Notes: generated from the sequence alone by a model not told the origin. Shown: positions 1,453 to 4,756, numbered from the stretch's first letter. The stretch is DNA of 64,000 nucleotides from Ancylobacter aquaticus (GCF_004339465.1 NZ_SMFY01000005.1:62001-126000), one strand, 5' to 3'. Made by a program: numbers and translations.

Positions 1453-1792
1453 GCGAAGCAGGCCGTCCTGCTTCCCGAGTTCGCGCGGAGCAGCGGGGGA
1501 GTTGGGGGGCAAGGGGGATGATGACGGGGGGAACCACCCACCCGAAGGGGCGGCGCGTTTACGCGCCGGCATGGCAGGCCGCTCGCGGCCGAATGCTGGG
1601 GGGTGGCGTCATCGCCCTTGCTGGGGCAGAGGGGGCAGAGCCTCCTGGCCCCGTGTTCCTCAGCCAGAAACTGGCGCGCCTTGGCGTGCTCTTTGGCCTC
1701 GTGATGTCGTCACCGGCATCGAGGGGGGAGAGGCGAGAGGGGTGGCATGGCCCCACTCTCGCCACGCGCGCGGGCGGTCGATCCGCCTGAGC
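1453..1792 (-). repeat. Hairpin-rich repeat, copy A (upstream of ssb)
   Basis: About 340 bases that recur in interrupted form at 3294-3468 plus 4592-4756. The copy contains successive inverted repeats: GAAGCAGG/CCTGCTTC (1455-1474), GGCGCG-ttta-CGCGCC (about 1551-1566), GGCCGC-tc-GCGGCC (about 1577-1590), and a GGGGGC/GCC-CC arm near 1629-1644. Loops and some arm bases differ between copies while pairing is mostly kept. Short open frames through it are not protein-like. It sits just upstream of ssb in the reading direction of that gene, so it is probably a regulatory or structural leader rather than coding DNA. Confidence 0.75.
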
Positions 1793-1888
1793 GCGGGACC
1801 GGCCCGGCCGCTCGGCGGGCCATCGGATTGGGAAAGCGCTGCCCCCCGGCGCTGTAGTCGTCGGGGGGCGTCTTCGCCTCACAGGGCG

Positions 1889-2233
1889 CTAGAACAGCGC
1901 CGCCTGCCCGTCACCCTCAAGCTCCCACCTCTTCGCCCTCGCCCGGCTCTGTGCCGCCTCTTTCCTGCGGATCGCGGCGGCGGCGGCCTCAAGGTCGGTC
2001 GATGCGTGGCGGGCGTGGATCTCCTGCAGCAGTTCCATGTCGAAGTATTTGGGCATGGCGTCCGCGAGCGCGGCGTCTTTTTCAGCCGCGCGCATAAGGG
2101 CGGCGGCGACCATCTCGCCGTCGAACATTTTGAAGCAGGCATCAAAAGCGTCTGCAGACGCGCCGGAAAGGACCGATTGCCGCGCCAGAGCGACGCGGCC
2201 GGCGAAGGTGCTGAAGCCGGGACGGCAGGTCAT
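1889..2233 (-). CDS. Hypothetical accessory protein
   Basis: A 114-residue protein starting MTCRPGFSTFAGRVALARQ. Its ATG overlaps the stop of the preceding gene by four bases (ATGA), which indicates translational coupling and fixes the start. The sequence is mostly helical and charged, with an alanine/arginine-rich C-terminal helix (about residues 80-105, AAAAAIRRKEAAQSRARAKR). No signal peptide, membrane segment or catalytic motif is visible. Context with ssb and the large upstream gene suggests a plasmid or ICE housekeeping or leading-region role, but I do not recognise the family. Confidence 0.65.
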   Translation of the reverse strand: MTCRPGFSTFAGRVALARQSVLSGASADAFDACFKMFDGEMVAAALMRAAEKDAALADAMPKYFDMELLQEIHARHASTDLEAAAAAIRRKEAAQSRARAKRWELEGDGQAALF

Positions 2234-3270
2234 GCGCTGGGCTCCCCTTGGAGAGCGGACACCACGCGCGAGGCGGAATAGCGCCCGGCATTGTTGAGGT
2301 GGCGCTGCCAAGCCCCCTCGGACGGCGCCCAACGGAAGCCCTCGCGCTTCATCAGGTCCCGCGTCGCGGCCTCGGGCTTGCCGTCGAAAAACATCTGAAT
2401 GCGAGCGGCGTCGCCATTCTCGACCACGCGCAGGCGCCCGGCTGTGGTGTTGTGCTCGTGCTCGACCGTCCCGCGCTCGCGGTTCGCCTCGATCGTCGCA
2501 AGCCGGGTCGCAAGCCGCTTTATTTCGGCCAGCTCGCCCGCAAGCTGATAGGCGGGAAAGCCGCTGCCCATCCATTCCTGCGAAGGCACGACGCAGCGCC
2601 TTGCCGTTGCCTCGCGCCAGCCCGTGGCGTCGACCACGGCTTGCACCTTGGCGTCCACGTCCTTGCCCTTCGCCGAGCGGATGGCGACATTTGCGGCCTT
2701 CATCATCGCATGCGCGGCCTGGCGCTTCTCGATCTCGGCGCGGATCAGTGCCGGCGCATCCGGGTTGCTGGCGCGGATCGGCTCGCCGGGGGCACCATGA
2801 GGGAAGGCGATACGCTCGACGGCGGCCCGGGCCGCCTTGGTGTGGTCGCTCACGGTGCGAAAGGCGTTGTCTGCCGATGCCTGCCGCTTGCGGTTCCGAT
2901 CCACCGGGAACCGGGCCGGCCCGACGACGAACCACGACATGCACCGCGACTCCATCGCCCAAGCGCGCCGCGTCAGCTGCACATGGCGGACTGTGAAACG
3001 CTCGATTTCGGCGCCAGCGTCCAGAATGCCGCCCCGCGCCACGATCGCGGTGACATGGGCGGTGAAGGCGTTGACGCGCTCACCGAGGGCGCCAAGCTCC
3101 ATGCGGGCGCGACGATCCGGGAAATGGGAAAGGGCGTCCCAATGGCGTTCGATGGCCTTGATGGTGAGCGAGAGGGAGAAGCCGCCGGCGCTGATTGTGA
3201 GGGTGTCCGCGCCGAACACGGCGACGGGCTGAACGGTGCCATTAAAATCGGGGTTGGTGTGCTGTTCCAT
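2230..3270 (-). CDS. Conserved mobile-element protein, unknown function
   Basis: A 346-residue soluble protein. The start is supported by GGAAGGGAAA about six bases upstream. Visible blocks: an N-terminal beta-rich segment (about 15-40), a helical region, a block MSWFVVGPARFPVDRNRKRQ near residue 113, a phage- or plasmid-like basic segment mentioning IRASNPDAPALIRAEIEKRQ, and a C-terminal block GFRWAPSEGAWQRHLNNAGR (about 313-332). The last motif recurs, as I remember it, in large plasmid and phage polyvalent proteins, where it is an accessory domain. No catalytic residues are evident. It is translationally coupled to the 114-residue gene downstream and preceded by repeat copy B, as ssb is by copy A. 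Confidence 0.75.
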   Translation of the reverse strand: MEQHTNPDFNGTVQPVAVFGADTLTISAGGFSLSLTIKAIERHWDALSHFPDRRARMELGALGERVNAFTAHVTAIVARGGILDAGAEIERFTVRHVQLTRRAWAMESRCMSWFVVGPARFPVDRNRKRQASADNAFRTVSDHTKAARAAVERIAFPHGAPGEPIRASNPDAPALIRAEIEKRQAAHAMMKAANVAIRSAKGKDVDAKVQAVVDATGWREATARRCVVPSQEWMGSGFPAYQLAGELAEIKRLATRLATIEANRERGTVEHEHNTTAGRLRVVENGDAARIQMFFDGKPEAATRDLMKREGFRWAPSEGAWQRHLNNAGRYSASRVVSALQGEPSA

Positions 3271-3293
3271 CTCGGTTTCCCTTCCTTGTTCGC

Positions 3294-3468
3294 TGCGAAG
3301 CAGGCTGCGTCCTGCTTCCTGAGGGTCGCGGAGACCGGGGGAGTTGGGGGCAAGGGGGATGATGACGGGGGGAATTACCCACCCGGAGGGCGGCGGCGTT
3401 TACGCTGCCGGCATGGCAGGCCGCTTGCGGCCGAATGCTGGGGGGTGGCGTCATCGCCCTTGCTGGGG
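3294..3468 (-). repeat. Hairpin-rich repeat, copy B, proximal part
   Basis: Matches copy A from its GAAGCAGG/CCTGCTTC hairpin (3296-3317, loop two bases longer than in A) through the GCGGCG-ttta-CGCTGC hairpin and the GGCCGC-tt-GCGGCC hairpin up to CTTGCTGGGG, where similarity stops abruptly at the IS110 boundary. It lies 24 bases upstream of the 346-residue gene. Confidence 0.75.
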
Positions 3469-3488
3469 ATGAGCGACTGTCTTTGCGG

Positions 3489-4422
3489 TCAAGCGTTTTT
3501 CCATGGGCGTCGATCCCTGAGGATGGCGTTGAGGATGACGAGGAGGCGCCTGGCGAGGGCGAGGAGAGCGAGCATCTTCGGCTTTCCGGCCTGGAGCAGG
3601 CGCTGGTAGAAGGCCTTCAGGACGGGGGTGTGCCGGGCGGCGACGAGGGCGGCCATGAACAGCACGGTTCGGACTGTGGTCCGGCCGCCGCCGATGAAGC
3701 TTCGGCCCTTCCAGCTTCCCGATTGCCGCGTGAACGGGGCGAGGCCCGCCAATGCGGCGATCTTCTTGCGATCGAGGGTGCCGAGTTCCGGCAACTCCGC
3801 CAAGAGTGAGCGCGACGATCGTTCCAACGCCGGGCACCGACGACAGCAGGTCCTCGGCCTCGCGCCAGGCGGGCGATCGGCGCACGGCGTCGTCGATATC
3901 GTGGTCGAGATCGGCGAGTTCCTTCTCCAGGGCTCGGATCAACCGCTCGATCGAGCGGCGGACCCTCGGCAGGGTCATGCGACGCAGGCGTTGGCGCTCC
4001 GCACCCATCATCTCGACGATCTGGCGGCGGCGGGCGACGAGATCGGCCAATATCTGGGTCGCCTCGTCGGGCAGCGGCCGGACCTCCGGCGCGGTCGCTT
4101 CGGCGAAGTGGGCGATGACGGCGGCGTCGATCGGATCGGTCTTGGCACGCTTGCCGAGCGCGCGGGCGAAGGATCGGACCTGGGCCGGATTGACCACCAC
4201 CACCGGCAGGCCGGCGCCGGCGAGTGCCGCTGCGACCACCGTCTCATACCCGCCGGTCGCCTCGAGAGCGACGAGCGCGGGAGCATGTCCCTTCAGGCGA
4301 TCGCACAGAGTGGCGAGACCGCGACCGTCGCGCGAGACGGCGAAGGCTTCCGACAGGGGGCGGAGATGGACATCGAGGCAGTCTTTCGAGACATCGATGC
4401 CAACGGTGATCTGTTCCGACAT
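3489..4422 (-). pseudogene. IS110-family transposase, frameshifted
   Basis: The first frame starts MSEQITVGIDVSKDCLDVHL at 4422 with the DEDD-type RuvC-like N-terminal domain (D10; the KTDPIDA block; ALEATGGYE) and reaches the helix-hairpin motif [14 protein letters not shown]. Downstream the family sequence continues only in another frame ([20 protein letters not shown], then [20 protein letters not shown], which holds the serine region of the Tnp20 domain) to the stop at 3489. The shift is near 3805-3815 and corresponds to one extra base or two missing bases. Unless the frame is recoded, no full transposase is made. Both halves otherwise look undamaged, so the mutation is probably recent or could be a sequencing error. 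Confidence 0.85.
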
Positions 4423-4590
4423 GACCCATCCTTGCCTAAACGAGCTCTTGCGGCCCTGGCGACTGTCCGGGTTCGAGGGAACGACGGGTGGGGAGCCGAT
4501 CTCATCCACGGTCTCGAACGACCCAGGGGGCTGCGGCCTCCCACCCGTCACCGCGGCGGTCAGCTTAACCGATCGCGGGAGGGCGAAGTT
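4423..4590 (-). ncRNA. Candidate bridge RNA region of the IS110 element
   Basis: IS110-group elements are known to transcribe a guide (bridge) RNA from the non-coding end upstream of the recombinase gene. Here about 168 bases lie between the transposase start and the element edge, a suitable length. They contain a strong inverted repeat: 4483-4498 pairs with 4534-4549 (16 positions, two mismatches; core GACGGGTGGG / CCCACCCGTC) around a 35-base loop. I cannot derive target- or donor-binding loops by eye, so this is inference from position and structure. Confidence 0.35.
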
Positions 4591-4591
4591 A

Positions 4592-4756
4592 CAAGGGGGC
4601 AGCGCCCCCTGGCCCCACGCCCTGCAGGAGGGAACTCGCGCGCCTGGCGCGCTCTGTGATCCTGTGATGTCGTCGCCGGCATCGAGGGGGGAGAGGCGAG
4701 AGGGGTGGCGGAGCCCCACTTTTGCGGCGGATCTCCGCGCGGTCGATCCGCGCGGC
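4592..4756 (-). repeat. Hairpin-rich repeat, copy B, distal part
   Basis: Resumes the similarity to copy A after the IS110 insertion: GGGGGC-ag-GCCCCC hairpin (about 4595-4609), then TGATGTCGTC..CCGGCATCGAG, GGGGAGAGGCGAGAGGGGTGG and the CGGTCGATCCGC end. It corresponds to copy A positions about 1629-1790. Confidence 0.75.

Follow-up and report, generated by a model that had tools for sequence, protein, structure and literature searches.

Hairpin elements with covarying structure precede leading-region-type genes on Ancylobacter and rhizobial plasmids: a candidate class of single-strand promoter

The stretch of DNA analyzed here, referred to as the window, comprises 64,000 nucleotides (nt) of Ancylobacter aquaticus DNA (positions 62001-126000 of C5, an Ancylobacter-type plasmid contig of 281,314 bp in a 4.83-Mb genome; NZ_SMFY01000005.1). 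A hairpin-rich noncoding element occurs in it twice, as copies A and B, in front of ssb and of a pair of genes for proteins of 346 and 114 residues. This duplication was the core of the original prediction for this DNA, and both copies lie where it placed them. Copy A (1453-1792) is read on the + strand, which is the predicted transferred strand and the template of the genes, and is identified by its repeats and homologues. It lies upstream of ssb (1000-1359, minus strand; 119 amino acids (aa); PF00436, 1.1e-27; TIGR00621), with about 95 nt between its gene-proximal hairpin, H1, and the ssb start codon. Copy B, also on the + strand, is located upstream of an open reading frame (ORF) for a 346-aa protein of unknown function (2230-3270, minus strand), whose ATG is about 26 nt from H1. 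A partner ORF of 114 aa (1889-2233, minus strand) overlaps the end of the 346-aa gene, and neither product has a Pfam or NCBIfam match.

Copy B had been described as two pieces, and it does comprise a gene-proximal part (3294-3473) and a distal part (4592-4756). The sequence between them (3474-4591), however, is one IS110-family insertion with a minus-strand transposase ORF (DEDD_Tnp_IS110, PF01548, 1.7e-24), and thus copy B is a single element interrupted between H2 and H3. The proximal part retains H1 (3297-3318) and the main stem of H2 (3350-3367 with 3449-3463), and the distal part holds H3 (4595-4609) and further sequence. The insertion lies between GGGGATGAG and GGGGGCAG, and the IS110-family element is the sole copy in this genome. 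Copies A and B align as direct repeats, with 84% ungapped identity over 1496-1564/3337-3405, 96% over 1565-1631/3407-3473, 75% over 1630-1681/4594-4645 and 85% over 1682-1762/4645-4725. As single-stranded DNA (ssDNA), copy A folds at -51.8 kcal/mol, compared with -41.2 (standard deviation (sd) 3.2) for dinucleotide shuffles (z of -3.3); the corresponding z for copy B is -3.5. A covariance model built for the element matches copy A from 1450 to 1660 (138.7 bits), and the distal part of this copy, to about position 1792, is kept among Ancylobacter copies only.

From the gene side outward on the + strand, the element consists of H1, H1b, a G-rich stretch, the H2 domain and H3. In copy A, the sequence of H1 (1455-1474) is GAAGCAGG-ccgt-CCTGCTTC, and H1b (1475-1497) is the hairpin CCG-a-GTTC-gcgcg-GAGC-ag-CGG, in which the pairing of GTTC with GAGC includes a T.G pair. 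H2 (1509-1621), which is defined by folding and covariation, is a long imperfect stem pairing 1509-1526 with 1607-1621 around two smaller hairpins (1552-1567 and 1577-1590). The distal hairpin H3 (1623-1652; GGGGC...GGGGGC-aga-GCCTCC...GCCCC) is marked by covariation and by an excess of G.T pairs. The hairpins that had been named earlier (GAAGCAGG/CCTGCTTC, GGCGCG-ttta-CGCGCC, GGCCGC-tc-GCGGCC and GGGGGC-GCCCCC) are all present, two of them enclosed by H2; missing from that list was the most important helix, the long H2 stem itself.

The sequences of H2 stems diverge widely among relatives, yet each pairs with itself, as seen for GCAAGGTGCGGGCGCCGG with CCGGCGGCCGCACCTTGC, GCAAGCATGAACTGGGG with CCCCAGTTCATGCTTGC, and GCAAGGGGATAAAAACGG with CCGTTTTTTCCCCTTG. 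The rhizobial relatives have similar motifs at the stem ends, GGAGGGGG(A/T)TC at one and GGGGA(G/T)ACC at the other, a conservation that arises partly by construction because the search was anchored on them. A diverged form of these motifs is present in copies A and B. Judged from these comparisons, the stem sequence appears free to change while the apical motif looks conserved. In three relatives (L070:216-397, L090 and L092), the apical region is flanked by similar same-strand motifs, GGGGATCACC and GGGGATACC/GGGGAGACC, as would fit a protein binding at two places. Some contigs of other genomes (L090, L091, L092, L120, L121 and L122) carry a compact variant whose perfect stem is very long, GGCGCAAGG...CCTTGCGCC. 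One compact copy lies at position 751675 of G398:C11, and such copies possibly belong to chromosomal integrative elements.

RNAalifold gave a poor structure for the full mixed alignment because the inner part varies in length, and therefore the helices were set by hand and then tested. A MAFFT alignment of 25 sequences contains 53 two-sided changes in paired positions, compared with 21.8 in shuffles. In a model-fitted alignment of 88 distinct sequences, which leans towards the structure, there are 404 two-sided changes versus 114 (sd 13) in shuffles, and both sides have changed in 39 of the 45 pairs. Ninety-one percent of cells in this alignment are paired, versus 45-61% when the partner is slid; a slide of a single base lowers pairing to 50-59%. 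Under a null that preserves both tree and substitutions, 13 of the 45 pairs are significant (10 in H2, 2 in H3 and 1 in H1). When all column pairs are tested against this null, only two are significant, and these are the best two, both of them H2 pairs. In a comparison that needs no alignment, pairing 38 distinct H2 stems with their own arms gives a score of 30.1, versus 19.3 (sd 5.4) with swapped arms. The four predicted helices are backed by compensatory changes, in keeping with the earlier claim that structure is conserved despite base changes.

Overall folding energy gives only a weak strand bias (mean z difference of -0.46), so we used pair-level counts to ask which strand carries the selected fold. 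G.T and A.C were given equal score in pairing before being counted. Read on the + strand, the ratio of G.T to A.C is 41:2 for H2 and, over the family, 26:2 for H1, 12:3 for H1b and 61:4 for H3, where composition alone would give a G.T share of 0.55-0.64. Because G.T far exceeds A.C on this strand, selection acts on the gene-template strand, as ssDNA or as RNA of the same sequence, and not on the downstream mRNA.

The repeat pair of the window belongs to a far larger family than the two copies first reported. A search within the genus finds seven copies on pLGM, a sister plasmid of 159,741 bp from A. pratisalsi, and roughly nine sites on C2, a replicon of a different Ancylobacter genome. With copy A as the query, a distant search matched 103 plasmid records. 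A Sinorhizobium relative used as the query matched 253 places in 174 PLSDB plasmid records, mostly from Sinorhizobium, Rhizobium and Agrobacterium but also from Labrenzia, Roseibium, Shinella, Mesorhizobium and Aminobacter. Forty-one contigs, nearly all from Hyphomicrobiales, contain a 26-base pattern taken from the H1b region. By covariance model, the element is present in at least 9 of 397 genomes of the order and at least 40 of 298 of one family, counts that are lower bounds owing to strict filters. There was no element match in the phage records searched, nor in 20,395 Escherichia coli chromosome and plasmid records searched in distant mode. Rfam returned nothing at gathering thresholds and only unrelated matches below them. 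The literature searched, with subscription journals and preprints outside its coverage, describes no such element for rhizobial plasmids.

Members of the family stand directly before genes. In 60 of 64 copies, an ORF of 60 aa or more starts no farther than 120 nt from H1, compared with 22 at the other end of the element, and the gap to the start codon usually leaves room for a ribosome-binding site alone. On pLGM, 22-25 nt separate the element from the start codon behind it in six of the seven copies. The seven precede genes for ArdC, a ParB-like protein and a methyltransferase, ssb, and unknown genes; a homologue of the 346-aa protein also stands after an element there. Over the family, the downstream products are ssb, ArdC (MPTase-PolyVal and ArdcN), ParB-like proteins, methyltransferases, the 346/114 pair, DUF3846 ‘psiB’ and DUF932. 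Leading regions of conjugative plasmids typically hold anti-restriction genes, methyltransferases and SSB (PMC11541004). By gene annotation, what lies behind the elements resembles the published leading regions (PMC11541004), which agrees with the placement originally proposed.

Past the distal end of copy B, the window contains GGAACGGG..GTGTGCTATATA..GTGGAG (4780-4860). The same series occurs at the pLGM copies near 122399 and 123733 and may form part of a more extended repeat. Adjoining this end of copy B is a PemK/MazF-like toxin gene (PF02452; 4899-5450), and a small ORF upstream of it may encode its antitoxin.

We searched the element for conventional promoter sequences. Among 66 copies, none reaches 9 of 12 consensus matches to sigma70-like boxes, and the mean best score is 7.0, versus 7.2 for shuffles. 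The window stretch contains no sigma70-like promoter above chance on either strand and no terminator-like site belonging to the element.

The direction of transfer was predicted from genes and a site to the left of the window, where traA (minus strand) is followed by traC, traD and traG (plus strand). Between traA and traCDG, on the + strand at C5:50720, the sequence GCAACGTCGCAACGCGACACATATTGCG^CTTGTAG forms a hairpin followed by a putative nick site, with the predicted motif GTCGC-aa-cGCGAC-acATATTGCG^CTTG. This motif is found between the same genes on pLGM, and we take the C5:50720 site to resemble the RSF1010/Ti nick. A strand starting there runs rightward via traCDG to ssb, 12.3 kb away. 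Given this direction, ssb and the 346/114 pair would enter early, and the predicted transferred strand would be their template.

A similar arrangement is seen in relatives. In 47 of 53 records, the best element is oriented opposite to the relaxase gene; every one of the 46 full-length best matches follows this pattern, and the six that do not are partial matches. Mapping of all copies that have a relaxase gene on the same contig (n = 41) revealed 29 with the template on the transferred strand and a class of 12 in reverse orientation, which weakens the claim of a strand rule. Reverse-oriented copies fold on the opposite strand. Possible readings are that they are passengers, that they function on single strands in the donor cell, or that the mechanism is independent of the transferred strand. 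A reverse variant is hosted by plasmids of Agrobacterium, Rhizobium, Gellertiella and Ciceribacter (L082:38307-38521, L128:10612-10826, L136:8975-9189, L138:11607-11819, L142:19773-19987 and L127:5998-6212). It is followed by a common flank, TTCGATTTCGGGAGGTCAAGGAGTGATCGCTTGCGCT, and usually by a gene for a 93-residue unknown protein.

Several known systems share features with this family. The single-strand promoters Frpo1 and Frpo2 of F and those of ColIb-P9 are likewise repeated noncoding elements before leading genes of the ssb and psiB type (PMC9849209, PMC11541004), in which a foldable transferred strand serves as the gene template for several operons per plasmid. As with Frpo, the elements are intergenic, precede leading genes with the transferred strand as template (29 of the 41 mapped copies), and show a conserved fold of that strand by covariation and G.T/A.C asymmetry. 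However, the Frpo stem-loop reconstitutes -35 and -10 boxes, whereas this element has more helices, no such boxes, a stem of free sequence and a conserved-looking apical motif. The search of the E. coli collection gave no sequence similarity, a comparison that is indirect since the query was the element and not Frpo. The element sits on alphaproteobacterial plasmids, which are not named in the two surveys consulted. Thus, it is Frpo-like in logic but not a member of Frpo by the box criterion, and the suggested membership of the Frpo/ssi group is not borne out.

EGeRS1 of the pLS20 family of Bacillus plasmids (PMC8708921) offers a second comparison, made by description. Its regions are likewise long, conserved and full of inverted repeats; each plasmid has several, and they precede establishment operons (ardC and methyltransferases) and lack a strong vegetative promoter, an arrangement also seen for the pLGM copies. 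The mechanism of EGeRS1 is unknown, and because the transferred strand of pLS20 is the non-template strand, its authors rejected a single-strand promoter (PMC8708921). By contrast, most copies here have the predicted transferred strand as their template. Sites of the sso and ssi type, such as sso1 of ICEBs1 (PMC4595007), again compared by description, also have several hairpins, are active only as ssDNA and are recognized by RNA polymerase or primase. The known ones, however, serve second-strand synthesis and are not placed before each start codon.

With modest confidence, we favor the interpretation that the repeat serves the early expression of leading genes as a single-strand element, and as such represents a new class of single-strand promoter. 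This proposal starts from observations, namely a repeat family with covarying structure, strand bias, position and orientation; we infer the polarity of the transferred strand from the predicted nick motif and the relaxase gene. On entry into the recipient, the transferred strand (the + strand of the window) would be single-stranded and would fold, forming H1, H1b, the long H2 domain that carries the apical motif, and H3. In this state the element would recruit a starting enzyme, most likely the host RNA polymerase, and RNA would leave at the gene-side end through the ribosome-binding site and start codon. Both the recruitment of polymerase and the timing of expression are what we infer from this arrangement. 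The element may in this way switch on genes while the incoming DNA is still single-stranded, such that the products of ssb and the 346/114 pair would appear ahead of completion of the second strand; in relatives, ArdC, ParB-like proteins, DUF3846/‘psiB’, DUF932 and methyltransferases would likewise be made early. It is possible, although we put this more tentatively, that the polymerase or a host or plasmid factor reads the apical motif, GGAGGGGG(A/T)TC...GGGGA(G/T)ACC, on a stem of free sequence in place of a -35/-10 duplex, and that this drives zygotic expression of establishment genes on rhizobial and related conjugative plasmids.

Some of the data weigh against this interpretation. The folded stem lacks -35 and -10 boxes, unlike Frpo, and the 12 reversed copies among the 41 mapped cannot be templates on the transferred strand. 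Most of these 12 are one near-identical variant lying ∼15-30 kb beyond the relaxase gene on the secretion-gene side. Where the relaxase is of the MobC type, transfer polarity was assumed by convention. The G.T counts derive from related sequences, so formal p-values overstate their significance, and an RNA of the transferred-strand sequence would give an equal G.T bias. The original likening to single-strand promoters fits in location and strand, given the nick motif and the G.T excess, but not for the reversed copies.

The main rival, because primer synthesis and transcription share a direction, is a priming site of the ssi or sso type. Primase or RNA polymerase would then be drawn to the folded transferred strand and synthesize a primer there. 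Having several such sites would hasten the double-stranding of the leading region, and gene expression would follow only from that conversion. Primers would run in the same direction as the genes, sigma70 boxes would not be needed, and the combination of several hairpins with a conserved motif resembles sites at which RNA polymerase or DnaG starts on folded ssDNA (PMC4595007). Judging by the title of Masai and Arai (1997), Frpo serves both roles. Nonetheless, a mere priming site gives no reason for the spacing of 15-50 nt to the start codon in nearly every copy, or for repetition before each of seven genes within 30 kb on pLGM, and we regard this explanation as unlikely.

Less probable again is an antisense or divergent noncoding RNA with the sequence of the transferred strand, acting as a structured RNA. 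Such an RNA would fit the G.T excess as well as ssDNA does, and the reverse-oriented copies would pose no difficulty. However, its promoter would have to lie within the 15-50 nt adjoining unrelated genes, or inside those genes, and there is neither a promoter-like match on either strand of the window stretch, nor a terminator belonging to the element, nor an Rfam family. We give an equally low rank to a protein site on double-stranded DNA, a cruciform, or a REP-like repeat that spreads but plays no part in transfer. The element is indeed repeated and palindromic, and was struck by an IS110 element, a family that can prefer such palindromic repeats. A cruciform would show no strand preference, contrary to the G.T bias. 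In addition, copies occur only at intergenic positions ahead of gene starts, with a single orientation to the gene, and no target duplication or terminal repeat was noticed. A regulatory leader in the 5' untranslated region of the downstream mRNAs would suit an element directly upstream of start codons in gene orientation, but we rejected it as highly improbable, since the variant pairs would become A.C mismatches in mRNA (41 G.T versus 2 A.C on the opposite strand) and Rfam has no match.

If the element is a single-strand promoter, it bears on how plasmids of the Alphaproteobacteria, including symbiosis, catabolic, metal-resistance and Ti-like plasmids, express their first genes, a process we did not find described in the literature searched. 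It may likewise be relevant to EGeRS1, an unexplained feature of Bacillus plasmids. As a covarying mark of such genes, the element predicts roles in establishment or anti-defense for the 346/114 pair, DUF3846 ‘psiB’ and DUF932. Moreover, were it to work without -35 and -10 boxes, it would widen the notion of a promoter on single-stranded DNA.

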